From Halorientalis salina (GTDB lineage Archaea; Halobacteriota; Halobacteria; Halobacteriales; Haloarculaceae), in the NCBI RefSeq assembly GCF_005049285.1, contig NZ_SOSC01000008.1, forward strand, positions 1 to 64,000: a stretch of DNA of 64,000 bases, in the 5' to 3' direction. Position numbers and translations under genes: made by a program. Numbering within the stretch: the first letter of the stretch is position 1; every line of letters begins with the position of its first letter. The notes beneath the pieces are model-generated. The model was not told where the DNA came from, did no database searches, and saw nothing but the letters and a program-made list of their open reading frames with translations. This document shows positions 1,773 to 30,302 of this stretch, in pieces.

Positions 1773-2320
1773 GCAATCAACATTCCGCAGACGAGAGCTC
1801 GGAGACCATCACCCGTCGCAAGTTCACGCTATCGGAGCAACTTGATCGAGAGATCGAGAAGTTGGCTAGCCGGCACTATCAGGGGAATGTCAGTCTCTGT
1901 CTTCGGGCTGGAGTGAAGGAACACCAGCAGACACTCAATGGCGAGGGGCGACTTGCGTTGAAACGGCTCGAACACGAGGTCAGTAATCTCAGCGAGTCAG
2001 TCGCGGACCTGAACTGCGACACTGGCGATACTACAACTGAAAACAAGGAGGTCAGAGATGAACGTGGCCTAGATATCTCCCCATCAGTTGGGGCTCATCA
2101 ATTAGACGTTGCGCAGGAGCTACTCGACGAATTTCTCAGATCAGAGACGCCACTTCGTGTTGAGGACCTCGTTGAACGCACCGACCTTCCCATACGCCGT
2201 GTCGTACGCGGGCTCGGGCATCTGGTTGATAGCGGTTCGATTGTCGAGACACCCTCGGGCTCACGGTACCAACTCGTCGCGAACAACCCCAACCAAACGA
2301 TCGACCAATATCATGACTGA
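1769..2320 (+). CDS. Ribbon-helix-helix plus winged-helix DNA-binding protein (left module)
   Basis: A 183-residue protein with three parts. Residues about 17-53 form a ribbon-helix-helix-like unit (KFTLSEQLDREIEKLA, then GNVSLCLRAGVKEH). Residues 60-82 are a leucine-heptad helix. Residues about 117-170 look like a winged helix (VEDLVERTDLPIRRVVRGLGHL, then a wing ending SRYQLV). The mirror module encodes the same architecture at 4,810-5,316, with GNVSQFLRSAIKDHERTING matching GNVSLCLRAGVKEHQQTLNG. It overlaps recombinase B by 8 bases, so the two are probably translated together. By inference it is a site-specific accessory factor or repressor for the recombinases and may bind the palindromic repeats at 3,476-3,551. 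Confidence 0.7.
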   Translation: MSNQHSADESSETITRRKFTLSEQLDREIEKLASRHYQGNVSLCLRAGVKEHQQTLNGEGRLALKRLEHEVSNLSESVADLNCDTGDTTTENKEVRDERGLDISPSVGAHQLDVAQELLDEFLRSETPLRVEDLVERTDLPIRRVVRGLGHLVDSGSIVETPSGSRYQLVANNPNQTIDQYHD

Positions 2321-3323
2321 TCAGAATAGTACTGATCCCGAACCTGACGAAACGCCGTACGTTGACGACTACCTTTCCAGAAACGAAGGTATTGTGCTCT
2401 CCTCATCGACCGTCCGGACGTATCGATACCGTCTCCAGCAGTACGTCCGGTTCTTAACTGAAAATGAGACGACAGTGTTGGATGCTGAACTGGACGACGT
2501 CGTAGCGTTTATCGAACGATGCGTTCGGCGCGGGAACCGAGAGTCGACGCTCTCGGGAAAACTCACGGCAATTGAACAACTCTACCGGCACATCAAACTC
2601 AAAACGGACGCTGCCGACGATCTCCGGCTCGAGCCATTGGAACTTGAGGCGATCAACCTTGGCCAGTACAACACACCACCCGCTCTCGAGCGTGTAGCGT
2701 TGACCCGAGAGGAAGTTCGACGCCTCTTCGACGCGATGGACAGCTATCGGAATCGACTGCTCGCTGTTACGGCAACGGAGACAGGGCTTCGGAATTCCGA
2801 CCTCCGCGAGTTGCTGGTTTGCGATGTTGTGTTCGATGAACTGATGATTCACGTGCGGAACCCCAAAAACGAAAAACCCTACGACGTACCGATCAGCAGG
2901 GACCTCGGGTTTGAACTGGAATGGTGGCTCGGCGGCCGACGGGAAGCGTTCACGACGGCTTCCGAGAGCCAATATCTGTTTCCAGGACAGAATTCACCAA
3001 AGTTAGAAACGAACAGTGGCCTGAATCGGATAATCAAGACTGCTGCCGAAAAGGCCGACCTGCAAGATATTATTGGGGTTTCGAGGGTCAAAGAAGAGGC
3101 GAGATCGGCAACTGATTCATCTGTTTCAGAGCGTCGGTGGCATCGAGTAACGCCGCACACACTCCGTCACACATATCTCACACTACTAAAAGACGCTCAC
3201 GTTCCGCTCCCATATCGCCAATTAGTGGCCAATCACACGAGTCCGGAGACAACACGAGGGTACACACACGGAGAAGACGGAGCATTTCAAACGATACGGG
3301 ACCGATTTGACCCCCCTCGCTGA
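2313..3323 (+). CDS. Tyrosine recombinase B (left module), complete catalytic set
   Basis: A 336-residue integrase/XerC-D-like recombinase. The frame is open upstream to 2,109, but the ATG at 2,313 (MTDQNS) overlaps the previous gene by 8 bases and gives the usual length. Residues about 15-100 are the SAM-like core-binding domain and 130-336 the catalytic domain. All expected catalytic residues are present: R160 (TGLRNSD), H282 and R285 (HTLRHT), H308 (ANHTS) and the nucleophile Y317 (GYTHG). It is related to recombinase B' at 3,620-4,786 (both have LTRLF/EVRRLFDAM-type and NSDLR boxes). It acts on DNA in the cytoplasm; the target is unknown but the repeats 150 bp downstream are candidates. 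Confidence 0.85.
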   Translation: MTDQNSTDPEPDETPYVDDYLSRNEGIVLSSSTVRTYRYRLQQYVRFLTENETTVLDAELDDVVAFIERCVRRGNRESTLSGKLTAIEQLYRHIKLKTDAADDLRLEPLELEAINLGQYNTPPALERVALTREEVRRLFDAMDSYRNRLLAVTATETGLRNSDLRELLVCDVVFDELMIHVRNPKNEKPYDVPISRDLGFELEWWLGGRREAFTTASESQYLFPGQNSPKLETNSGLNRIIKTAAEKADLQDIIGVSRVKEEARSATDSSVSERRWHRVTPHTLRHTYLTLLKDAHVPLPYRQLVANHTSPETTRGYTHGEDGAFQTIRDRFDPPR

Positions 3324-3619: not shown

Positions 3620-4786
3620 TTAAAGCAAGTTAGTCCCGTGAAAGAGACGGCGCATGATGTCCTTATACTCTGATTCGTTGTACGTATAGTATTCTTTTGT
3701 CGTCTTTATATTGTTATGATCGAGAGCAGCACTCCGTGCATCGGAATCCAGGCCAGCTTGCTTCAGTAGATGGCTGAAGGTGTGTCTGAGCAAATGAGGA
3801 GTAACGCGATGTTGCTGTATCTTATCTTTTTTTACTCCCTTATCCCTTTCTGCTTGCGTCGGTTCACGTTCTCCGACTACTTCTTGGATCCCGGCTCTAT
3901 CAGCGGCTCGCTCTATGATACGAGACAGACTTTTGTTGGCCATCAGTTTCTCACTCTGTTCACTTGGGAAGAGGTATATACTATCCGAATATTTTGCTCC
4001 TGATACACGTTCGATTTTTATCCACCGTTCGAGTTCTAATGCGAGTTCGTCACTTATGGGGATACTGTACGTCCTGTCTGATTTCTTATTTGGGACCTCT
4101 ATGATATTATTGTCAAACCTAACATCATTGATCTTGATATTACGGAGGTCGCTATTCCGTGCCCCTGTTTCAGAAGCGACTAACACGATCAGTTGGTCGC
4201 GTCGACTCTGCATTGCATCAAACAGTTTTGTTAGTTCTTCGTCATCCAGCGGTCGTTTTTGTGCTCTATTCTTCGTCTGGAATCCATTCGCATCGATGTC
4301 TTGGAGTAGAAATAGATCGATTTTGGCTTCACATCCGGATGCATTCCGAATGTATTTGTATAATTTAGTGATCGCGGTTTGTCGAGATTTGAGTGTTGTT
4401 GTTGCAATATTTTGCTGTGCTAACTCTCTGAAGAAGCCCTTGACATCACCGACCTGTGCTTTGAGGACAACCAAATCCTGTCGACTCAGGTATCGCGTGT
4501 ACGCTCTGAGACGCGACTCATATGTACGAGCACTTGACTCTCTGATCTCGGCTCCCGAGACGGTTTCCAGGAACTCGTTTGCAATTGGTGCACCAGTCTC
4601 AAAGACTGAGGTACAACTTGATGAATTTGAGGAGCGGTTCTGCGATGATGGAGTCACTGGTGCATCTCTAGAAGCGCAGGAAGGCGTTTCGCTGTTCCTT
4701 GTGTCCTTGTCGCCCGATAACTTGGCTGAGTGTTCGTTGTTTGTGCCGAATACATCAAGCGTGGCCTGTTGATCGTTCGAAGTCAT
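3620..4786 (-). CDS. Tyrosine recombinase B' (right module)
   Basis: A 388-residue integrase, longer than its left counterpart because of a 75-residue Ser/Thr-rich N-terminal extension. The core-binding domain spans about 80-160 and the catalytic domain 180-388. Catalytic residues are R210 (TGARNSD), H331 and R334 (HLLRHT), H357 (LDHNN) and the nucleophile Y366 or Y367 (KEYYTY). It also carries a lysine/glutamate-rich insertion (about 305-325) before the HxxR box, matching a shorter one in the left copy. It is the last gene of a leftward unit A'-small gene-RHH'-B', with 23 bp between the RHH' stop and its ATG. Base composition is A+T-rich compared with the core chromosome. Confidence 0.85.
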   Translation of the reverse strand: MTSNDQQATLDVFGTNNEHSAKLSGDKDTRNSETPSCASRDAPVTPSSQNRSSNSSSCTSVFETGAPIANEFLETVSGAEIRESSARTYESRLRAYTRYLSRQDLVVLKAQVGDVKGFFRELAQQNIATTTLKSRQTAITKLYKYIRNASGCEAKIDLFLLQDIDANGFQTKNRAQKRPLDDEELTKLFDAMQSRRDQLIVLVASETGARNSDLRNIKINDVRFDNNIIEVPNKKSDRTYSIPISDELALELERWIKIERVSGAKYSDSIYLFPSEQSEKLMANKSLSRIIERAADRAGIQEVVGEREPTQAERDKGVKKDKIQQHRVTPHLLRHTFSHLLKQAGLDSDARSAALDHNNIKTTKEYYTYNESEYKDIMRRLFHGTNLL

Positions 4787-5316: not shown

Positions 5317-5561
5317 TGATCTGCCCTCCAGTCCATTCCACTCCTTCTATCGAAATCACCATCCGAACACGAGGTATAGTGTATCTTATAAGAAGGGCAA
5401 TAGAGAAGTTGTCTCGTAGGTGTCTTGTCCTCAGATGATGTACTTCTCTCGTATACCTGCCTCTCTCTTATCCGTGTAAGTACGGCTCTATATGACGAAT
5501 TCCAACAAGACTTCGGGATTGTATATCTCTCTATGAGTGTTCCAGACAACAAAATACTCAC
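5313..5561 (-). CDS. Small hypothetical protein, cargo slot of the right module
   Basis: An 82-residue frame starting at GTG 5,561, where the start overlaps the TGA of recombinase A' (GTGA). It ends overlapping the next gene by 4 bases. Such double overlaps suggest translation through the unit. The product is basic and Ser/Thr/Arg-rich, unlike the acidic neighbours, and I recognise no domain, so it could also be a chance frame bridging two genes. No similarity to the cargo genes at 959-1,772 is apparent. Confidence 0.35.
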   Translation of the reverse strand: MSILLSGTLIERYTIPKSCWNSSYRAVLTRIRERQVYERSTSSEDKTPTRQLLYCPSYKIHYTSCSDGDFDRRSGMDWRADQ

Positions 5562-6589
5562 AGTATAACACCCCCTTGGATCGACTCAATCACCTCTTTT
5601 TTCGTCTCAGGTGTTGCGTGTGCGTATTTACGTGCAGCTTCTAAACTCGCATGCCGAAGAGTTGCTGCAACCAGCTCCAAATCCTTCTCCTGATTATAGA
5701 CATACATTCCCGTACTATGTCGGATGCTGTGCCAGGTGAGTTTCCGATTACCTGGTTCAATTTCTGCCTCCTCTATCAGATTGTCAAGCAATCTATTCAG
5801 CGTCCCCGAATTGTACGGATTCCCTTTTCGATTTAGCCAAATATTATCTATATTATCATACCTTGGCCTATTATTCCGCTCAGCCATCCAATACTCAAGA
5901 ATTCGGCTTGATCGGTTCGATAACTCACATTCCCACTTCTGATTGTTCTTTACAGCAGTATCAGGGGGGATAACAATCTGGCCGTTACCAATATCAATCG
6001 ATTTCATCTCCAACCGACCGATCATCTCAGCCCGCCATCCGCAGTCGAGCGTTGTGGAGATTATGCTCGGTATCTTCCAACTTCTCCGTAAGCTCTCCCA
6101 GTCATCTGGTCCGACCTGCTCTTTCGGTTTTCCCAGATGTTGGGATAACTGAGTATTCCACCTGTCTCGCTCGTCTGGTGACACATTCTTGTAATTTGGA
6201 GGGGATCGATAATTCAAAGCAGCCTTTAGTAAGCGCTCTCGCTCTCGCAAATTAAACGGATCCGGTCCCGCAGAAGAATCCGTGTCTGTAAATTCGATCT
6301 CAGGATCCCATTCGATTCCTTGAGACCTAAAATACGAATTAATCGCGTGCTGGAACTTCCGTTTACTCCCTTCGGAGTATTCCTCTCCGTCTTTGTTCAA
6401 TATTTCGTCTCTATTGAGGCCTTCAATAAACTCATCAGCTTGTTTCGGTGTCAATTCAAGAATACTATATCCGTTCTCCCAGCAGTACTGGTGCACTTGA
6501 TGAATTCGACGTGCAATTGGCCTTATATTCGATTCTGCATATCCTCTATTCCGCTGGGGATCCTTACCTCGCGTCCGTAGAAACTCCAT
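5558..6589 (-). CDS. Tyrosine recombinase A' (right module), main frame
   Basis: A 343-residue integrase from ATG 6,589. It has a helical core-binding region (about 10-100) and a catalytic domain with R (WRAEMIGRL), H-x-x-R as HSIRHS, H in LRHAS, and a terminal tyrosine in RKYAHA. It is the full-length relative of the truncated copy at 114-953. The start overlaps the stop of a 36-residue frame (TGATG) whose last residues (IMRFGRG) look like the missing beginning of this protein, so the true N-terminus may lie at 6,699 with a one-base frame change. The gene leads the leftward module A'-small-RHH'-B'. Confidence 0.8.
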   Translation of the reverse strand: MEFLRTRGKDPQRNRGYAESNIRPIARRIHQVHQYCWENGYSILELTPKQADEFIEGLNRDEILNKDGEEYSEGSKRKFQHAINSYFRSQGIEWDPEIEFTDTDSSAGPDPFNLRERERLLKAALNYRSPPNYKNVSPDERDRWNTQLSQHLGKPKEQVGPDDWESLRRSWKIPSIISTTLDCGWRAEMIGRLEMKSIDIGNGQIVIPPDTAVKNNQKWECELSNRSSRILEYWMAERNNRPRYDNIDNIWLNRKGNPYNSGTLNRLLDNLIEEAEIEPGNRKLTWHSIRHSTGMYVYNQEKDLELVAATLRHASLEAARKYAHATPETKKEVIESIQGGVIL

Positions 6590-6699
6590 CAACCTCGTCC
6601 AAATCTCATGATAGAGGATTTTTCTTTGTGATTGAGTCCCTCAAGGCTCTCTTTGGAGAGAAACTCGAAATCCGGTTTCTCCTCATCGTTCGGGGGCAT
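6589..6699 (-). pseudogene. Probable N-terminal piece of recombinase A' in a shifted frame
   Basis: An ATG at 6,699 (MPPNDEEKP) opens a 36-residue acidic, helical frame that ends at TGA 6,591-6,589. That stop shares bases with the ATG of recombinase A' (TGATG). Joining the two by one base would give an uninterrupted helix, IMRFGRG-LMEFLRTRGKDP, as in integrase core-binding domains. It may be a frameshift mutation, a recoding site or a natural reinitiation junction. A TATA-like TTATAC lies about 65 bp upstream on this strand. The left copy cannot be compared because its N-terminus is lost. Confidence 0.45.
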
Positions 6700-8571: not shown

Positions 8572-9723
8572 TTAAGAATTTAGAACAGGGCTTTGAACCG
8601 TTAGCTCAGAGAGACTGTTTTCTTTTGCACAGTTCGGACAAAGTGGATTTGTCCTATTAGTTGACATTCTATTGATGGTTTTCCAGTCAAAGATAAAATC
8701 ACAATCTGGACAATACCATGGATGCACGCCATGGCTGTCAGCCAACTGGGGATACAAACCCGCAAGCGTTGGCGTCAATCGGTTATCATTATCGCTCTGA
8801 AGATACTCGCTTATCTTTTCCCTCGGGTATGTCGTACAGCCCAGGATTAGTCCTCGTACACCTAGGTCGCTGTGTCCGGAATTACCTTTACCACACCGTT
8901 CCTGATAGGAGCAATATTTACACTCCCAGCTTGACTCTGGTACAGCTGGGGGCAAGTTCTTATCAAGCCGATACTCGGTTTGCTCGTTCGCCCACGACAG
9001 TACGATATCCTTCCAGAACTCTTCATCAAAGTCGACATGGAAAAACACTACATCGAATGAATCACGGTCGGCGTACATGAGAACGCCCTCCGTCAAATCG
9101 ACATCGTATTCATCAGAGAGACCAGCCATGTAGGCGTGGAGTTGGGCTTTGTGATGCCGACTCGGTGAGGTCAAATCCTTAATAGATGACTTGGTCTTGA
9201 TTTCCGTTGGCAAAATCGGAACTGCATCTGGGTCCACTATAACGGGATCAGTCGTACCCTTAATCCGTAGTTTACCAACCTCTGTTTCTATGCTGTGATC
9301 AATCCACACCGAATTCTGTACGTATCTATCTGAGCCAGTGACCTCCTGCTGTAAAAATGGGAATACTATGTCTTCTTCAAACCGAGTTCCAAACCAGAAA
9401 ATTCCTTCTGGATCTGACTGTTCCGCGGGCGCATTGTGCTGCTGGTAGTAGATTTTTCGATGGCATTGCAGAAGGTTACTGGGGTTATGATATTCTGGGT
9501 CCGGAACGTACCCCGATTTATTGAAGTATGGTGTTCCGTTTTCGATATTCTGTCTGAACTGACGTTCCCGATACCAGTCACGGAAATGGTCTGCCGAGAG
9601 GATGTTACGTAATTGAGTAACTGTTGCCTGCGTATGCCCTGAGTCTCTCTCACGTTCATTAGCCATTTGTGGATGGGGATGGCCATCTCGTTGACCATCG
9701 TTGTCTCCCACAACGGTTCTCAT
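8572..9723 (-). CDS. Cas4-like PD-(D/E)XK iron-sulfur nuclease with C-terminal zinc ribbon
   Basis: A 383-residue protein with the full Cas4/Dna2-type nuclease signature. C87 (LLQCHRK) lies before the nuclease core and C268, C271 and C277 (CKYC, ERC) after it, which together would hold a 4Fe-4S cluster. The catalytic motifs are D159 (GTTDPVI), E174-x-K176 (EIKTK) and the Q194-xxx-Y198 motif (QLHAY). An extra C-terminal zinc ribbon follows (C338/C341 and C362/C365). No cas genes or repeat arrays are in the window, so it is a CRISPR-independent relative of the kind found on mobile elements, with a likely role in DNA end processing for replication, recombination or defence. The start could also be M20 (9,666). 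Confidence 0.8.
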   Translation of the reverse strand: MRTVVGDNDGQRDGHPHPQMANERERDSGHTQATVTQLRNILSADHFRDWYRERQFRQNIENGTPYFNKSGYVPDPEYHNPSNLLQCHRKIYYQQHNAPAEQSDPEGIFWFGTRFEEDIVFPFLQQEVTGSDRYVQNSVWIDHSIETEVGKLRIKGTTDPVIVDPDAVPILPTEIKTKSSIKDLTSPSRHHKAQLHAYMAGLSDEYDVDLTEGVLMYADRDSFDVVFFHVDFDEEFWKDIVLSWANEQTEYRLDKNLPPAVPESSWECKYCSYQERCGKGNSGHSDLGVRGLILGCTTYPREKISEYLQSDNDNRLTPTLAGLYPQLADSHGVHPWYCPDCDFIFDWKTINRMSTNRTNPLCPNCAKENSLSELTVQSPVLNS

Positions 9724-13383: not shown

Positions 13384-14436
13384 ATGACTCAGGAAGACAC
13401 TTCCGGCATGAGCCGGACTGACCAGGTACAGCCCGACTACAACCACTTGGAGAAACTCGTTCAAGTCACGCAGGACGCCCTTGTCGAGGCCGAAACGATT
13501 ATCAACGGTCATCGGGACGCCGTTGATGCCATTGACGATGGCCTTGAGCAGGCGGAGGACCTGATCGACGACGCCCAGGACAACGATCACCCCGAACTCT
13601 TGGACGAGGTTTCCGCCTACGTCGACGATGTTCAGGGGACAATCCGTCACCTCGAAGACAGGGTCGACTACGAGACGGACACGGAGGAGACCGTCGAGAG
13701 GATGAACGCCCTCGATAACGCGGTCGAAGACCTTGAGGACGCCCTAGAGGACAACCACCAGGGCAAACTCGTGGTCAACGTCAGCGAGAAGATGTTCTTC
13801 CCCGACGAGTTTGTCATGGAACCGTCCAAGATTCTCGAAGCAGCGGGCTTCGCCCGAGACGAGTACCTTCTGTACGCGGGAGCAGACGCAGACGAAGACG
13901 ATCCGCACATCGAGAAGGGTACGAACGTCGACCTCCGGGACCAGAACGTCTTCTCGGCCATCCCCGACGAGGTGGGATACGGCGGTACGTCGACCAACAC
14001 TCCAGAGGACGACGACGCCGACCTCCCCACCGGTATCCAGAAGGAAGTCGAGGACCTCCGTGAGGACTACAAGGTCGACGTCGACACCGAGGCCGAGGAC
14101 TCCTTCACGCATGTGATCGTGCGTGACTACCCGGTACCAGTCGACACCTACAACCGAGACACGACGGACGTGATGATCCGGGTTCCTCAGAACTACCCCG
14201 AACAGGCGCCCGACTGGGTGTACGTCGAGGAAGAGTTCCGTCTGAAGAACGGCGAGCTCCCGCGGAAGGCTCAGACGATGGACACCAACCCGAGAAACGG
14301 GGCCGTCGTCCCTGGCTGGGTGGCACTCTCCTGGCACCTGAGCAAGATGGACACGGTCACCTGGACTCCCTACCAGAACAACCTGCGCTGGTACCTCGAC
14401 ACCATCGTCCGCGGTCGACTCTCGCAGGGTGACTGA
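13384..14436 (+). CDS. Fusion protein: coiled coil - ubiquitin-like domain - E2-like domain
   Basis: A 350-residue protein from ATG 13,384 (a GTG at 13,366 is in frame). Residues about 20-120 are acidic helices, probably a coiled coil. Residues 128-194 resemble the beta-grasp multi-ubiquitin family (LVVNVSEK, then ILEAAGFARDEYLLYAG, then VDLRDQNVF), followed by YGG with glycines at 200-201. Residues about 216-350 resemble the prokaryotic E2 family E (VIVRDYPVPVDTYNRDTTD, RVPQNYPEQAPD, ALSWHLSKMDTVTWTP). No cysteine occurs anywhere in the protein, so no classical E2 thioester can form. It shares a TGATG overlap with the JAB-E1 gene. By inference it supplies both modifier and carrier in a ubiquitin-like conjugation or sensing system. 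The fold assignments come from pattern recognition. Confidence 0.75.
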   Translation: MTQEDTSGMSRTDQVQPDYNHLEKLVQVTQDALVEAETIINGHRDAVDAIDDGLEQAEDLIDDAQDNDHPELLDEVSAYVDDVQGTIRHLEDRVDYETDTEETVERMNALDNAVEDLEDALEDNHQGKLVVNVSEKMFFPDEFVMEPSKILEAAGFARDEYLLYAGADADEDDPHIEKGTNVDLRDQNVFSAIPDEVGYGGTSTNTPEDDDADLPTGIQKEVEDLREDYKVDVDTEAEDSFTHVIVRDYPVPVDTYNRDTTDVMIRVPQNYPEQAPDWVYVEEEFRLKNGELPRKAQTMDTNPRNGAVVPGWVALSWHLSKMDTVTWTPYQNNLRWYLDTIVRGRLSQGD

Positions 14437-16118
14437 TGCTGGAGGACATCAAGAACGCCGACGAACGGGCCGCCCCGGCGAGTACTGACTGGATCGACGA
14501 GTCTCTGTCCGGCGTCGACGCTGTCGCCGATCGCGTCTCCCTACGAATTACCGGCGATGACTACGAGAGCCTCCGTGACCACCTCATCCGGCCAGACAAG
14601 CTGGAGTATGCGGCGTACCTCCTCGCCGGGACGAATCGCTACATGGACGGCGACGACGAGGTGCTGGAGTACTTCGTTCGTGAGGTCGTCCCGATCCGCC
14701 CGTTCCGATACTCAAAGCAAGCCAAGGGCTTCGTCGGGATCCCGCATGACGTAACGCGGGAGATGACCGACGACGCTGCCGGCGACGGTATCGGGGACGA
14801 CTGGACGGTATTCGTTGTTCACAGCCACCCCTGGTCGACCTCTCCCCGCCACTCGGCGACCGACGACCGGGCGGAGCCCGAGCAACTGGCCACGATTCAG
14901 GCCGACCGAAAGGGGCCGCACGGGTCACTCATCATCGGTTCAGACCAGGACTCGGTGACAGGTCGGGTCTGGCCGACCGACGCGGCAACGATCCGCGACT
15001 GCGGGGCGGCCGCCGCCACCCCACTGGACGAAATCGTCATCCTCGGGAAGCGGTCGTTCTCGAAGATCCGACCAACGGACTCGCGGATAGAGTCCGACGA
15101 TAGCAGTCCGGACCGTGACGAGATGCGCGACCGACAGGCGCTGCTCCACGACACCGAAGGAAACCGCGACCTCGGGAACACTGACGTGACCGTGGTTGGT
15201 GCCGGTGGGCTCGGGTCCGACGTGATCCACACGCTCGCGAAAATCGGCTTCGGTCGCGACGACGGGTCAATCACTGTGGTCGACCCCGACGTAGTCGAGG
15301 AGTCCAACCGCTCGCGCATCACGGGCGCGAAGCCGATTGACGCCGGCGACGAAGACGCGACTCCTGACGAAGACTCGGTCGTCCCGGCCCGATGGACCGA
15401 CGAGATCCCGGACCTCGGGACCGCGAAAGTCGACGTGATGGAGCGACACGTAACCGAGATGGACCCCAGGATCACCGTCGAGACTGTTCGGGAAGTCGGT
15501 CAGTCTAAGGCCGGAATGGACGCCATCACAACCGCCGATATCGTGGTTACGGCGGTTGACCGACAGACGCCTCGGCGAGTCATATCGCGAGCTTGCAAGC
15601 AGTACCTCCGTCCGCACATCGACACAGGCGTGGCGATCAACACAGACGGAACCACATCCATTGCGAGTCGAATGACTGTCTCGGGCGCCGGTCGCCCGTG
15701 TCTCGACTGCCTCGGCGCAATCAACGAAGACCGACTTCAAGCCGAACAGCACGGGAGTGACCAGGAGGCCTACGGAGTCGGCGAACAGCCGGCTGTCGCA
15801 ACAGTCAACGCCGAGGCCGCTCAGCGCGCATCCTTTGCTGCTCATCGATACTGTACTGGCCTATTTGACGACCGAGGTGGGTTCGCGACCGGGATATTCG
15901 ACTTCGCAACTGGTGAACGCTACGACACCAATGACCGGAACTCCGACTGTCCGTACTGCGGGGAGGACGCGCTCTTCCCCGCACGTGGTGAGCGGGCCCC
16001 CTCACCCGTGAAGGACATAGAGCGGAGCCGACCTGCTCAACCCGAGAATTCGGCGAAGGTTCAGTCCGGCGAGAAAGGCGTAATCGCCACGCTCCGTAGC
16101 CTGGTTCGGACTCTCTGA
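14436..16118 (+). CDS. Fusion protein: JAB/JAMM metallopeptidase - E1/ThiF activating enzyme
   Basis: A 560-residue protein. The N-terminal part (about 40-210) carries the JAMM motif: H129 and H131 (HSHP), then S140 and D143 after the standard seven-residue gap, the zinc-binding signature of deubiquitinase-like isopeptidases. Residues about 248-500 are an E1/ThiF Rossmann domain with GAGGLG (255-260), an acidic strand end (VVDPD, D283) and N291/R292/R294 for ATP. Two CxxC pairs (C422/C425 and C505/C508) form the expected zinc site. It would adenylate the tail of a ubiquitin-like protein and, through the JAB domain, trim precursors or reverse conjugation. It is coupled to the UBL-E2 gene by a one-base overlap. 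Confidence 0.9.
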   Translation: MLEDIKNADERAAPASTDWIDESLSGVDAVADRVSLRITGDDYESLRDHLIRPDKLEYAAYLLAGTNRYMDGDDEVLEYFVREVVPIRPFRYSKQAKGFVGIPHDVTREMTDDAAGDGIGDDWTVFVVHSHPWSTSPRHSATDDRAEPEQLATIQADRKGPHGSLIIGSDQDSVTGRVWPTDAATIRDCGAAAATPLDEIVILGKRSFSKIRPTDSRIESDDSSPDRDEMRDRQALLHDTEGNRDLGNTDVTVVGAGGLGSDVIHTLAKIGFGRDDGSITVVDPDVVEESNRSRITGAKPIDAGDEDATPDEDSVVPARWTDEIPDLGTAKVDVMERHVTEMDPRITVETVREVGQSKAGMDAITTADIVVTAVDRQTPRRVISRACKQYLRPHIDTGVAINTDGTTSIASRMTVSGAGRPCLDCLGAINEDRLQAEQHGSDQEAYGVGEQPAVATVNAEAAQRASFAAHRYCTGLFDDRGGFATGIFDFATGERYDTNDRNSDCPYCGEDALFPARGERAPSPVKDIERSRPAQPENSAKVQSGEKGVIATLRSLVRTL

Positions 16119-16811
16119 TACCAGCGGTTAGGAACAAGAGCGTTAACCCGCTCACAGCGATTTAAATTCTGGCGGGGTATGAAGGGCGTCATCCAGAACT
16201 TCTCCGTCGATCTCGCCAGGAAACGCCTCATTGCGTTACCTAAATATCTGGTTCACAGAGAGAATACGAGAGTCAGTCGAGATATTCATTCTCAGTCACC
16301 ACGAGATCGCCGTGATTTCTGATCTGATATCCATCACCATACTCTCTATTGTGGTCTCTGATGTTCGGGTGGCTGGGTCTACTGAGTTCGTTGAAGCGGT
16401 CGGGAGTCTGTTCGAACCATTCTTAGAATTCGAGTATGACGAGACTCTAGATCCGACACAATTGGTCGGCCAACCCGGCTAGAAATGGTCGGGTTCCCGA
16501 TTTCGAATAATCGAATCGACTGACAACTAATGTCCTCGATACCTCTCTGTTTCGGCTCGGTCTTCTCGGACTATAATCCGGCTTCCAATGGTCTGGTACC
16601 TTCACCGCTCACGGTCATTCTAGGTGCGAAAAACCACTGAGGGGCCAGTTAATGGCCGAACTGTAACGATGTACACAGCGACCGGCCATCACTATTGTCT
16701 GCTCTGGCATAATCCGAATTCGAAGATCAGATATCTGGCTTGCAAGGCCGGACTGAAATATTTTGGCCGAAACTGAATCAATTCATAATGGAAAGCCCAC
16801 CACTCGTATAA
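16119..16811. other. About 690 bp without a convincing gene
   Basis: The longest frame is an 83-codon TTG-initiated one at 16,231-16,482 with no recognisable feature. ATGGCCG (16,652-16,658) and CGGCCAT (16,683-16,689) form an inverted pair. On the minus strand the preceding sequence (16,658 leftwards) matches 13 of 18 bases of the repeat at 3,532-3,549. TTCGA-ATAA-TCGAA at 16,502-16,515 is another small palindrome. The stretch may contain an element boundary. Confidence 0.45.
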
Positions 16812-17732
16812 TTATTCTGATTCACCCTCGTCAAAACTGTGAGATAAGTCAACCTGCTGTCCGGAAGCAATTCTATCGCTTTGTAGGATGAGGAAGTCGC
16901 TAATCAAATACTGAATATAATATTTCTGATAGTTCTGCTTTGCTGTATTGAATAGTTTGAAACTCCCAACTGCAATAATGAACGCCGCTGGAGCTAGTAT
17001 TCTACTGCTAATATCTAGTGTACCTATGAATGAGGTGTACGACGCTAATTCGGATAACACACCTATCATCGAAAGCATACTATATATAGCGTAAATCAGG
17101 AACAGGCAAATTGAGACAATCCACATACTCCGGCAAAAAGAGTAGATTGCTTGGAATGACCGTGATCGACCACGTCCATCGATATGAACTACAGACCGGA
17201 TATTCCCGTACAATAAATCAAACCTTCTCGCGGTGTCCCCATTTTCATCCAAATCGGTTCTACTCTCGGGCAAATTCAATTCTGGAAAGGTACCACGCGA
17301 AACCTCGTAAAATGAGTTGCAGACCTCTGTATCGAGTATTTCACCATCTTGATTTGTATTCAGTTCATTGATGAATCGCTTGCGGTGGCTAGTATTCTCG
17401 AAGTATTGGTCCCCGAATAACTGGCGGAGTGGTTCAGCGATAAACCACCGCTTGAACCAGAGATTGGCCTTCTCGCGTCTGCTTGTCGCCTCATTCATCA
17501 TTTCCTTGATCTCCTCACTTTTTGATGAGTTGCTCTCAATCGCCACTGCAACCGTGTGTACCGCCTGCCCAACTGCAAAACCAATGGCAAGAATTGGTAG
17601 AAGAACGCCTAGCGATCCTAACGAAGTTTTTGAGGGGAGGAATGGAATCACTCCAAGGAGGAAAACAACACCAGGAAGTAGAACGCTAAAAAAGCTATAG
17701 AGGCTAATTCTTGGTGAGCTGTTCCCGAGCAT
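16812..17732 (-). CDS. Membrane protein with four predicted helices, unknown function
   Basis: A 306-residue protein with hydrophobic helices at about 11-31, 39-64, 201-225 and 243-261. They are arranged as two hairpins around a soluble middle of about 135 residues (charged, with one cysteine at 138) and an acidic C-terminal tail. This hairpin-soluble-hairpin layout is known in several effector-type membrane proteins but no family is recognised. It is transcribed toward the ubiquitin-like operon. A defence-effector role is possible but unproven. Confidence 0.6.
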   Translation of the reverse strand: MLGNSSPRISLYSFFSVLLPGVVFLLGVIPFLPSKTSLGSLGVLLPILAIGFAVGQAVHTVAVAIESNSSKSEEIKEMMNEATSRREKANLWFKRWFIAEPLRQLFGDQYFENTSHRKRFINELNTNQDGEILDTEVCNSFYEVSRGTFPELNLPESRTDLDENGDTARRFDLLYGNIRSVVHIDGRGRSRSFQAIYSFCRSMWIVSICLFLIYAIYSMLSMIGVLSELASYTSFIGTLDISSRILAPAAFIIAVGSFKLFNTAKQNYQKYYIQYLISDFLILQSDRIASGQQVDLSHSFDEGESE

Positions 17733-18058: not shown

Positions 18059-18427
18059 TTGTAACGCGATTTCATCAGCATCCTCTGTGTGGGGTTGATC
18101 ACAATGAATACCTACCAGAGACGGATAGCTAACTGACTCCTGTCGATGAACATCGACCGCCAGCTTCAATCTCGTATCTTGTGGGCCAATCCGTTGTATC
18201 AGTAGACAATTTAGTGAGGTGTATTTGATGTAGAAGCAAGACAGCGATTTCGTCTATTATTCGCTCATCAACATTGCTTGTTCGTCCGAACCGTAATGGT
18301 GAAGCAATACCCGAAATCGCATGACTGCGGCAGATTCTCGAAATCGTGGGAATCGGTTTGCCCTCACAATTTGGTGGCAAAGTAACTCAACTACGACTGG
18401 AATCGCAAGACGGCGAGAGGAAAGGAG
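18059..18427. other. About 370 bp between the island and the tRNA, no clear gene
   Basis: An 83-codon minus-strand frame at 18,129-18,380 contains a helical acidic stretch (DERIIDEIAVLLLHQIHL), but it lacks a recognised family and a clear promoter and could be a remnant. The segment is A+T-richer than the DNA right of the tRNA. Confidence 0.4.
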
Positions 18428-18502
18428 TGCTCCGACAGGGATTCGAACCCTGGTCATTGCCGTGAGAGGGCAATATGATTGGCCGGACTACACCATCGGA
18501 GC
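18428..18502 (-). tRNA. tRNA-Glu (anticodon CTC)
   Basis: A complete cloverleaf on the minus strand: acceptor GCTCCGA pairs with TCGGAGC, discriminator A; the anticodon loop CTCTCAC sits between TTGCC and GGCAA; the T arm is CAGGGTTCGAATCCCTG. No intron. Its 3' end faces the accessory island to the left. Archaeal integrases often use tRNA 3' halves as attachment sites, so this is a plausible chromosomal boundary, though I found no second copy of the 3' end inside the window. Confidence 0.95.
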
Positions 18503-29051: not shown

Positions 29052-30302
29052 ATGGCGATTGAGGTTACTCGCACCTACGTTGGTTCCATCCAGAACCAGC
29101 GACAGGTCTGCGATGGCCTCGATTCGCTCGGAGACTCTACCTCGAAGATTTGGAACGTCGCACGATGGACAGCCGACCGAGTCTGGGATGCAACAGGCGA
29201 AATCCCAGACGAGTGCGTGCTGAAAGCGTACATGAAGAACCAGCCGTGCTGGAAAGATCTGAACGCACAATCCAGTCAGAAAGTCATCGAAGAACTTTCT
29301 GACGCTTTCCAGTCGTGGTTCGACCTGCGACAGAAAGACCCAGAGGCGAATCCGCCCGGCTACCGCAAACACGGCGATACCCGGCCCAAGAGTACGGTCA
29401 CGTTCAAAGAAGACGGGTTCAAACACGACCCAGAGAACAACCGCGTCCGACTCTCGAAAGGCTCGAACCTCAAAGAACACTGGTCAGACTTCCTACTCTG
29501 CGAGTACCAGACGCGCCCCGACGTTGACCTCGCAGATGTCAACCGGGTGCAGAACGTTCGAGCTGTCTGGAACGGCGACGAGTGGGAACTGCACTTCGTC
29601 TGCAAAGTCGAACTTGAAACCAACGATTCGGCAGGCGACGGTGTTGCAGGTATCGACCTTGGCATCAAGAACATCGCCACGGTCGCATTCCCTGACGAAT
29701 ACGTGCTGTACCCCGGCAACTCGCTCAAAGAAGACAAGCACTACTTCACCCGCGCAGAGTACGACACTGAGGGTGAGGACGGCCCGTCAGAGAAGTCGAT
29801 GTGGGCACGTCGGAAACTCACTGACCGTGAGACACACTTCTACCATGTCCTCACGGACACGATCATCACCGAGTGTGTCGAACGCGGTGTTGGGACGCTC
29901 GCGGTGAGTTGGCCTGAAGATGTGCGAGAATCCGATTGGGGTGCGACGGGGAACAAGAAGCTGCACTCGTGGGCGTTCGACCGTATCTACCAGTATCTCG
30001 AATACAAGGGCGAGATTCGTGGCGTCGAGGTGCTGAAAGAGAACGAATGGGACACCAGTAAGACCTGCTCACGGTGTGGTGACGACACGAAGTCGAACCG
30101 GAAGCACCGTGGGTTGTATGTCTGCTCGTCGTGCGAGTTGGTCGGAAACGCGGATTGTAATGGGGCGGAGAATATGCGACAGAAGATAACTCCGAGTCCT
30201 CACGGTGAGGATAGGAGTAACGGCTGTGTGGCACAGCCATCGGTACACCTGTTCGACCGCGAGAGCGGGATGTTCAACACGAGAGAACAGGTCATGTCGT
30301 AG
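29052..30302 (+). CDS. tnpB: TnpB, RNA-guided nuclease-like protein of the IS200/IS605 group
   Basis: A 416-residue protein, full length for the family. The N-terminal helical region is followed by a RuvC-like nuclease with D202 (GIDLGIKNIA), a glutamate near 289 (SWPED) and D368 (GNADCNGAENM). The zinc finger C339/C342 and C358/C361 sits between the last two motifs. All the parts needed for an active guide-RNA-dependent nuclease are present. The reRNA (omega RNA) would be encoded across the 3' end of the gene and the right-end hairpin (30,336-30,355), with the guide reading into flanking DNA at about 30,358 onward. Confidence 0.92.
   Translation: MAIEVTRTYVGSIQNQRQVCDGLDSLGDSTSKIWNVARWTADRVWDATGEIPDECVLKAYMKNQPCWKDLNAQSSQKVIEELSDAFQSWFDLRQKDPEANPPGYRKHGDTRPKSTVTFKEDGFKHDPENNRVRLSKGSNLKEHWSDFLLCEYQTRPDVDLADVNRVQNVRAVWNGDEWELHFVCKVELETNDSAGDGVAGIDLGIKNIATVAFPDEYVLYPGNSLKEDKHYFTRAEYDTEGEDGPSEKSMWARRKLTDRETHFYHVLTDTIITECVERGVGTLAVSWPEDVRESDWGATGNKKLHSWAFDRIYQYLEYKGEIRGVEVLKENEWDTSKTCSRCGDDTKSNRKHRGLYVCSSCELVGNADCNGAENMRQKITPSPHGEDRSNGCVAQPSVHLFDRESGMFNTREQVMS

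Follow-up and report, generated by a model that had tools for sequence, protein, structure and literature searches.

By sequence and predicted structure, two adjoining genes of Halorientalis salina appear to be an archaeal member of the Bub pathway of ubiquitin-like (Ubl) conjugation (class 6e of Iyer et al. 2006), and to belong to neither the Bil nor the CBASS systems. This would extend into Archaea, in a compact two-gene form, a pathway with active sites that break the thioester rule of ubiquitin chemistry. The pair stands for a rare haloarchaeal clade, which is new in carrying a helical bundle where bacterial Bub precursors have additional Ubl domains. A sister haloarchaeal clade, which judging from alignments retains the E2 cysteine, also appears to be new.

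Layout and kinship of the gene pair

An earlier sequence-only reading had described both open reading frames (ORFs), their one-base overlap and the union of a Ubl-E2 with a JAB-E1 fusion in one conjugation module, and our analysis bore out all three (Table 1). The overlap probably couples translation of the two genes. H129, H131, S140 and D143 of the JAMM domain, the GAGGLG motif (residues 255-260 of protein 2) and the two CxxC pairs (422/425 and 505/508) lie where that reading had put them, and are invariant or nearly so in archaeal and bacterial relatives. The JAMM and adenylation sites are intact; the E1 residues comprise G255/G257/G258, D283, N291, R294, K331 and D375, with zinc cysteines at C422, C425, C505 and C508. 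R294, K331 and D375 would correspond in order to MoeB Arg73, Lys86 and Asp130, the textbook adenylation residues (PMC12355090).

Table 1 Features of the gene pair and its surroundings in the window, the whole 64,000-nucleotide stretch of DNA analysed
Feature	Position	Strand	Basis or remark
Ubl-E2 precursor (protein 1), archaeal BubA-BubB fusion	13384..14436	+	350 aa; pI 4.1; no cysteine
N-terminal four-helix bundle, protein 1 residues 19-125	13438..13758	+	AF2 model
Ubiquitin-like beta-grasp domain, protein 1 residues ~128-200	13765..13983	+	AF2; Foldseek; profile-profile match
GYGG, protein 1 residues 198-201: C-terminal Gly of the Ubl and predicted site of the JAMM cut; start of disordered linker	13975..13986	+	
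E2 (UBC-like) domain, Prok-E2_E, protein 1 residues 216-348	14029..14427	+	PF14462; BubB 9EAE_C
S316 (S-x-H motif), aligned with the E2 catalytic cysteine	14329..14331	+	alignment
TGATG stop/start, one-base overlap of both genes	14434..14438	+	
JAB-E1 fusion (protein 2), archaeal BubCD	14436..16118	+	560 aa
JAB/JAMM metalloprotease domain, protein 2 residues ~33-203	14532..15044	+	E83, H129, H131, S140, D143
E1 adenylation domain, protein 2 residues ~224-508	15105..15959	+	conserved E1 residues and Zn cysteines
Y446, conserved E1 crossover-loop tyrosine (Y370 in Citrobacter BubCD)	15771..15773	+	loop is the site of the UbaA catalytic Cys
Phage-type integrase genes, four in 6.6 kb, left end of the island	114-953, 2109-3323, 3620-4786, 5558-6592		
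Cas4/PD-(D/E)XK-like nuclease with C-terminal Zn ribbon	8572-9723	-	PADLOC Cas4 E 1.7e-16
306-aa membrane protein, weakly like Csx27 (type VI-B CRISPR accessory)	16812-17732	-	PADLOC E 9.5e-8; NCBIfam far under cut-off
ORF resembling IS200/IS605-type TnpB	29052-30302	+	read by eye

Profile searches recovered most of the domains that the sequence-only reading had expected: Prok-E2_E (PF14462) matched protein 1 at residues 229-318 over the Pfam cut-off (E 7.7e-11), ThiF matched protein 2 with 98 bits, and a multi-ubiquitin match came from hhalign, in which the Ubl domain alone reached probability 87 and E 4e-6 against bacterial multi-ubiquitin domains (profile-profile). The expected Prok-JAB match in protein 2 stayed below threshold (E 0.003), and Pfam Multi_ubiq gave no match in protein 1; by Pfam alone, the signal for both the Ubl and the JAB domain is weak.

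In the AF2 model of protein 1, built from eight sequences (mean pLDDT 78), residues 19-125 form four helices and residues 131-194 a beta-grasp-like unit; residues 201-211 are disordered, and residues 216-348 make up a UBC-like unit. Both folds proposed earlier for this protein are therefore present in the model, and the Ubl and E2 parts of that description stand; the N-terminal coiled coil does not, as AF2 gives a four-helix bundle there. When the model was compared with the PDB by Foldseek, Citrobacter BubB ranked first and BubA second. The Ubl domain matched BubA 9EA8_B (probability 1.00, E 0.044), and the E2 domain matched BubB 9EAE_C with Z 13.8 and an rmsd of 2.7 over 123 aligned residues. 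For the protein 2 model, the first eight chains were all BubCD (best E 1.9e-25), with the match covering residues 32-483. Confidence is low in the E1 crossover loop (pLDDT <50 at 417-454), and the model therefore does not reveal the Y446 geometry. Fold searches with the bundle returned helical-bundle matches only; kinship to S23/Avd/invertase-inhibitor folds was considered and rejected, as Z values of ~13 are usual for any four-helix bundle and no evidence of kinship.

Consistent with the fold comparison, a 12-protein JAB-E1 profile matched Citrobacter BubCD over its full length (E 2.7e-71; the next match was ThiF at 9e-36), and the E2 profile matched Citrobacter BubB (E 2.7e-14; next match E 0.05). 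As the closest solved relatives are thus Citrobacter BubA, BubB and BubCD, we place the pair in the Bub pathway. With the Citrobacter system (PDB 9EA4, 9EA5, 9EA8, 9EAE, 9EAV) it shares a JAB-E1 fusion homologous over the whole length, a BubB-type E2 with Ser-x-His, a tyrosine and no catalytic cysteine in the E1 crossover loop, a BubA-type Ubl joined to the E2 in a single precursor with Gly at the junction, overlapping neighbour genes and a mobile element. The two differ in host, bacterial there and archaeal here, and identity is only ~20%. Protein 1 has one Ubl domain and the helical bundle, against about three Ubl domains in the precursor of Citrobacter; tandem Ubl domains are a frequent but non-defining companion of Bub. 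The first Zn CxxC is lost in Citrobacter BubCD but kept in protein 2, and the C. freundii homologue has a DUF6527 gene and upstream regulator genes, both of which are missing from the Halorientalis pair. No DUF6527 (treble-clef) gene was found among the ORFs of at least 80 aa at 16118-16812; such a gene is not universal in Bub-type loci, being absent also beside L028 and L089.

The pair likewise shows the class 6e combination of a Ubl, a cysteine-less E2/RWD-like domain and a JAB domain N-terminal to E1. In the original description, class 6e operons carry a cysteine-less "inactive E2-/RWD like" domain, in some cases fused to the Ubl (PMC1779556). They were reported in bacteria only, in contrast to the archaeal pair, and their fourth gene (treble-clef-like, C-x3-C..H-x2-C) is absent here (PMC1779556). 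The two-fusion layout, which the sequence-only reading had thought unusual, was already on record in 2006 (PMC1779556) and recurs at L028, L085, L091 and L092. It is found on plasmids of Pseudosulfitobacter, Methylomagnum, Agrobacterium and Citrobacter freundii.

That reading had also pointed to Bil and CBASS as relatives, and this was not borne out; the relatives are the Bub/class 6e multi-ubiquitin operons. Bil operons and CBASS Cap2/Cap3 resemble the pair in having E1, E2 and JAB parts. They are bacterial, have demonstrated anti-phage roles and work with a cysteine-based E1 and E2. Protein 1, by comparison, has no cysteine at all. Nor is there the E2-E1 fusion beside a CD-NTase that marks CBASS: the E2 sits on the other protein, no CD-NTase appeared among Pfam and PADLOC matches of the neighbouring genes tested, and the PADLOC E1-E2 models matched the E1 domain only. 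The SAMP/UbaA/HvJAMM system occurs in the same type of organism and is similar in that a MoeB-like E1 activates the Ubl and a JAMM protein removes it. It differs, however, in keeping the UbaA catalytic cysteine (PDCSEAG in the H. salina genome, where UbaA is a separate gene, L002:964-1806), and in having neither an E2-fold partner nor an operon with a Ubl-E2 fusion.

Active sites and fusion junction

Both catalytic cysteines are lost from the pair. At the catalytic column of the aligned E2 domains, 19 of 26 have Ser, six have Cys and one has Asp (an E2 copy at L026). All six Cys copies are archaeal, and the Ser-bearing E2s mostly show an S-x-H motif, in archaea and bacteria alike; in protein 1 the column holds S316, within LSWH. 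With UbaA from the same genome as reference, none of 24 JAB-E1s has Cys at the UbaA catalytic column, and 23 of them have a tyrosine in that loop, Y446 in protein 2. Its equivalent in the C. freundii homologue is residue 370, in a numbering shared with the solved protein (D104, Y370). PDB entry 9EAV is entitled BubCD(D104A/Y370F)-BubB-BubA(155-229); the JAMM aspartate and the conserved tyrosine were therefore mutated to obtain that complex, and published Bub work has examined this tyrosine. A Bub mechanism paper by Ye et al. (2026) is said to report oxyester chemistry. The claim of the sequence-only reading, that all four functions of a Ubl cycle are present, has to be revised: with both catalytic cysteines replaced, this is no canonical thioester cycle.

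The junction glycine is kept. Where the Ubl is a separate gene, it ends in or near Gly, with 0-7 further residues before the stop codon (..TTTEG, ..KANFG, ..VFG, ..VFGTK and ..VFGSS), and fused genes have the same Gly right before the E2 (TTEG/LGTP, TTTEG/AGAA, TTAG/DASS and TAYG/STQL, the slash marking the junction; GYGG in protein 1). L020 has a natural split form of the archaeal fusion, in which the Ubl ends ..NPYGREDEQ and the E2 is a separate gene. Altogether 24 of 27 Ubls have the junction or terminal Gly, in rows that are not all independent, as several haloarchaeal loci are near copies. The bacterial Ubls L088 and L089 have no such Gly, despite an intact JAB motif at both loci, and L046 is ambiguous. 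In the C. freundii homologue, a single protein of 362 aa comprises BubA and BubB. Its junction Gly is residue 229, at which the solved Citrobacter BubA construct (155-229) stops. The retained Gly, the split version and the construct ending at G229 together make protein 1 a likely precursor that the JAMM domain would cleave, and the natural split/fused pair locates the predicted processing site within a residue or two. JAMM (Rpn11) removal of a pro-ubiquitin tail provides an archaeal precedent (PMC5654768).

Two haloarchaeal groups

Rarity lies in the haloarchaeal version, as a survey across haloarchaea revealed: protein 2 had matches at E 1e-20 or better in 7 of 391 Halobacteria genomes, one of which (G040) belongs to group B. 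Here group A denotes the kind of the Halorientalis pair and group B the sister haloarchaeal set; both form separate clades (support 100/100 and 99/97, respectively). Genome contigs were scanned with a 4-row archaeal profile, and a scan with the single protein P0002 as query gave no match. In GTDB contigs, group A occurs in Halosimplex, Halorarius, two Halomicroarcula, Natrinema gari and a Haloarculaceae archaeon. In viral collections, searches gave short E1-domain matches or no match at all, and not one genuine relative.

One lineage of group A takes the form of a near-identical cassette, in which a divergent CARF/DUF6293 regulator accompanies Ubl-E2 and JAB-E1, and a phage-type integrase is usually present as well. 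The regulator matches PADLOC CARF3 (E 2e-89) and is absent from the Halorientalis locus. Haloarcula and Halorubrum plasmids carry the whole cassette, and a Halorarius plasmid its three core genes. Copies of the cassette (~92% DNA identity) lie at L015:7033-12005 and also at L018, L019, L023 and L037, on different haloarchaeal plasmids; the cassette integrase alone has matches in ~100 plasmid records. On the plasmid of Haloarcula sp. SYNS111, the Ubl-E2 ORF (L019:9434-10417) is frame-shifted within the E2, with the usual C-terminus in another frame, and the E2 part of that copy may therefore be broken. We also asked whether group A JAB-E1s share an amphipathic membrane helix at the C-terminus, and rejected the idea, since the hydrophobic moments were mostly not unusual (133, 497, 22 and 317 of 2000 shuffles were as high).

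Group B (Salinigranum, Natrinema, Natribaculum, L021, L034) comprises a Ubl ending in [VI]FG, an E2 and a JAB-E1. Its JAB-E1 resembles that of the Halorientalis pair in lacking the catalytic Cys and having the conserved Tyr. Group B differs in that Ubl and E2 are separate genes, most E2s keep the Cys (KYCIH..W.P), and the JAB-E1 has a C-terminal membrane helix or a small membrane-protein gene downstream; the latter features suggest that the Ubl may be activated at the membrane. A Ubl-E2 fusion with Cys is found elsewhere in the same phylum (L035). We tentatively, at somewhat less than even confidence, regard groups A and B as sister Ubl systems with a common cysteine-less, Tyr-bearing E1-JAB and a differing E2 nucleophile, Ser in group A and Cys in group B. 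If so, the Ser/Cys switch of the E2 could be tested within one kind of organism, as could transfer from adenylate or Tyr to the E2 without an E1 thioester, with group B as the natural comparison for the change of nucleophile.

Among individual group B loci, the JAB-E1 at L024:8130-9650 has a clear C-terminal hydrophobic helix (Kyte-Doolittle 2.79), and those at L026:7980-9785 and L034:1477-3375 have a weaker, possible one; small membrane-protein genes lie downstream at L021:6635-6973 and L025:9524-9952. Two tandem Ubl and E2 gene pairs precede a single JAB-E1 at L026:6033-7978 and L034:43-1472, each with one E2 bearing the catalytic-column Cys and the other bearing Asp (L026) or Ser (L034).

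Proposed mechanism, alternatives and role

The pair is best explained, with good though not full confidence, as a haloarchaeal Bub-type Ubl conjugation operon in which a JAMM-cut precursor feeds a Tyr/Ser route. Cleavage, transfer order, targets and function in the cell are inferred; the steps would be as follows. The JAMM domain of protein 2 would cut protein 1 after G200 or G201, releasing the E2 domain and a Ubl that ends in Gly and still bears the helical bundle. The E1 domain would then adenylate the Ubl C-terminus with ATP. As neither E1 nor E2 carries a catalytic cysteine, the activated Ubl would pass from the adenylate via Tyr446 and/or Ser316 (Ser-x-His) of the E2, as an oxyester, to the target; alternatively, these groups may assist direct transfer to it. 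The JAMM domain could also take the Ubl off again. If this is true, the conjugated Ubl of the Halorientalis system carries a large helical-bundle tag.

An E2-fold domain that is dead (RWD/UEV-like) and serves for docking only, with the target attacking the Ubl adenylate directly and the fusion possibly staying uncut as an E1 tether, is an unlikely alternative. Iyer et al. 2006 termed the family inactive because the cysteine is absent (PMC1779556), there are weak UEV/Med15-type matches, and one L026 copy has Asp at the catalytic column. Against this, the residue in that column is non-random, with Ser predominating in archaea and bacteria, mostly as S-x-H, and sister haloarchaeal E2s have Cys in the same place; the Gly retained at the junction and the existence of a split version also speak against this alternative. 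Far less probable still, indeed very improbable, is a sulfur-carrier pair whose Ubl would be thiocarboxylated, as in ThiS/MoaD/SAMP, for a metabolic product. The E1 of protein 2 is ThiF/MoeB-like, and haloarchaeal SAMPs have a double role, which would fit such a function. However, the pair has no rhodanese domain and its E1 no catalytic Cys, the genome has its own UbaA that does, and the nearest relatives are BubA, BubB and BubCD. The sulfur-carrier operons that the sequence-only reading had named as the contrary outcome did not appear either: no sulfur, thiamine or molybdopterin genes were seen around annotated relatives.

Compatible with the Tyr/Ser route is a role in an antiviral or stress response, with protection arising when a virus or host protein is tagged; we rate it at just under an even chance, and phage defence by the pair is possible. 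The island that carries the pair is low in GC and includes four integrases and a Cas4-like gene, and relatives are on plasmids, some beside a CARF-type regulator and others beside ImmA/IrrE and HTH pairs, a dCTP deaminase or a SIR2 protein. Bacterial relatives have DNA-damage-type regulators as neighbours and sit on conjugative plasmids; Bub operons contain regulators under DNA-damage control and may function in stress responses (PMC13373217, 2026). On the other side, phage protection by Bub operons has not been demonstrated according to the same paper (PMC13373217), no known regulator adjoins the Halorientalis pair, and no relatives were found in viral records. Haloarchaeal genetics offers a route to the physiological role of Bub.

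None of the tested neighbours of the pair in the window has a homologue at the relatives' loci, and the Cas4-like nuclease and the Csx27-like protein are therefore not counted as parts of the system; the latter was not seen at those loci, and no Cas1 or Cas2 was found among the adjacent genes tested around the Cas4-like gene. No attachment repeats of the tRNA-Glu that would bound the island were found within the window, which starts at the contig end. The accessory island with mobile genes posited earlier is confirmed by its integrase genes on the left, with tRNA-Glu (18427-18502) on the right. GC content is ~0.42-0.50 over most of 3-18 kb, and near 0.6 in the pair itself.
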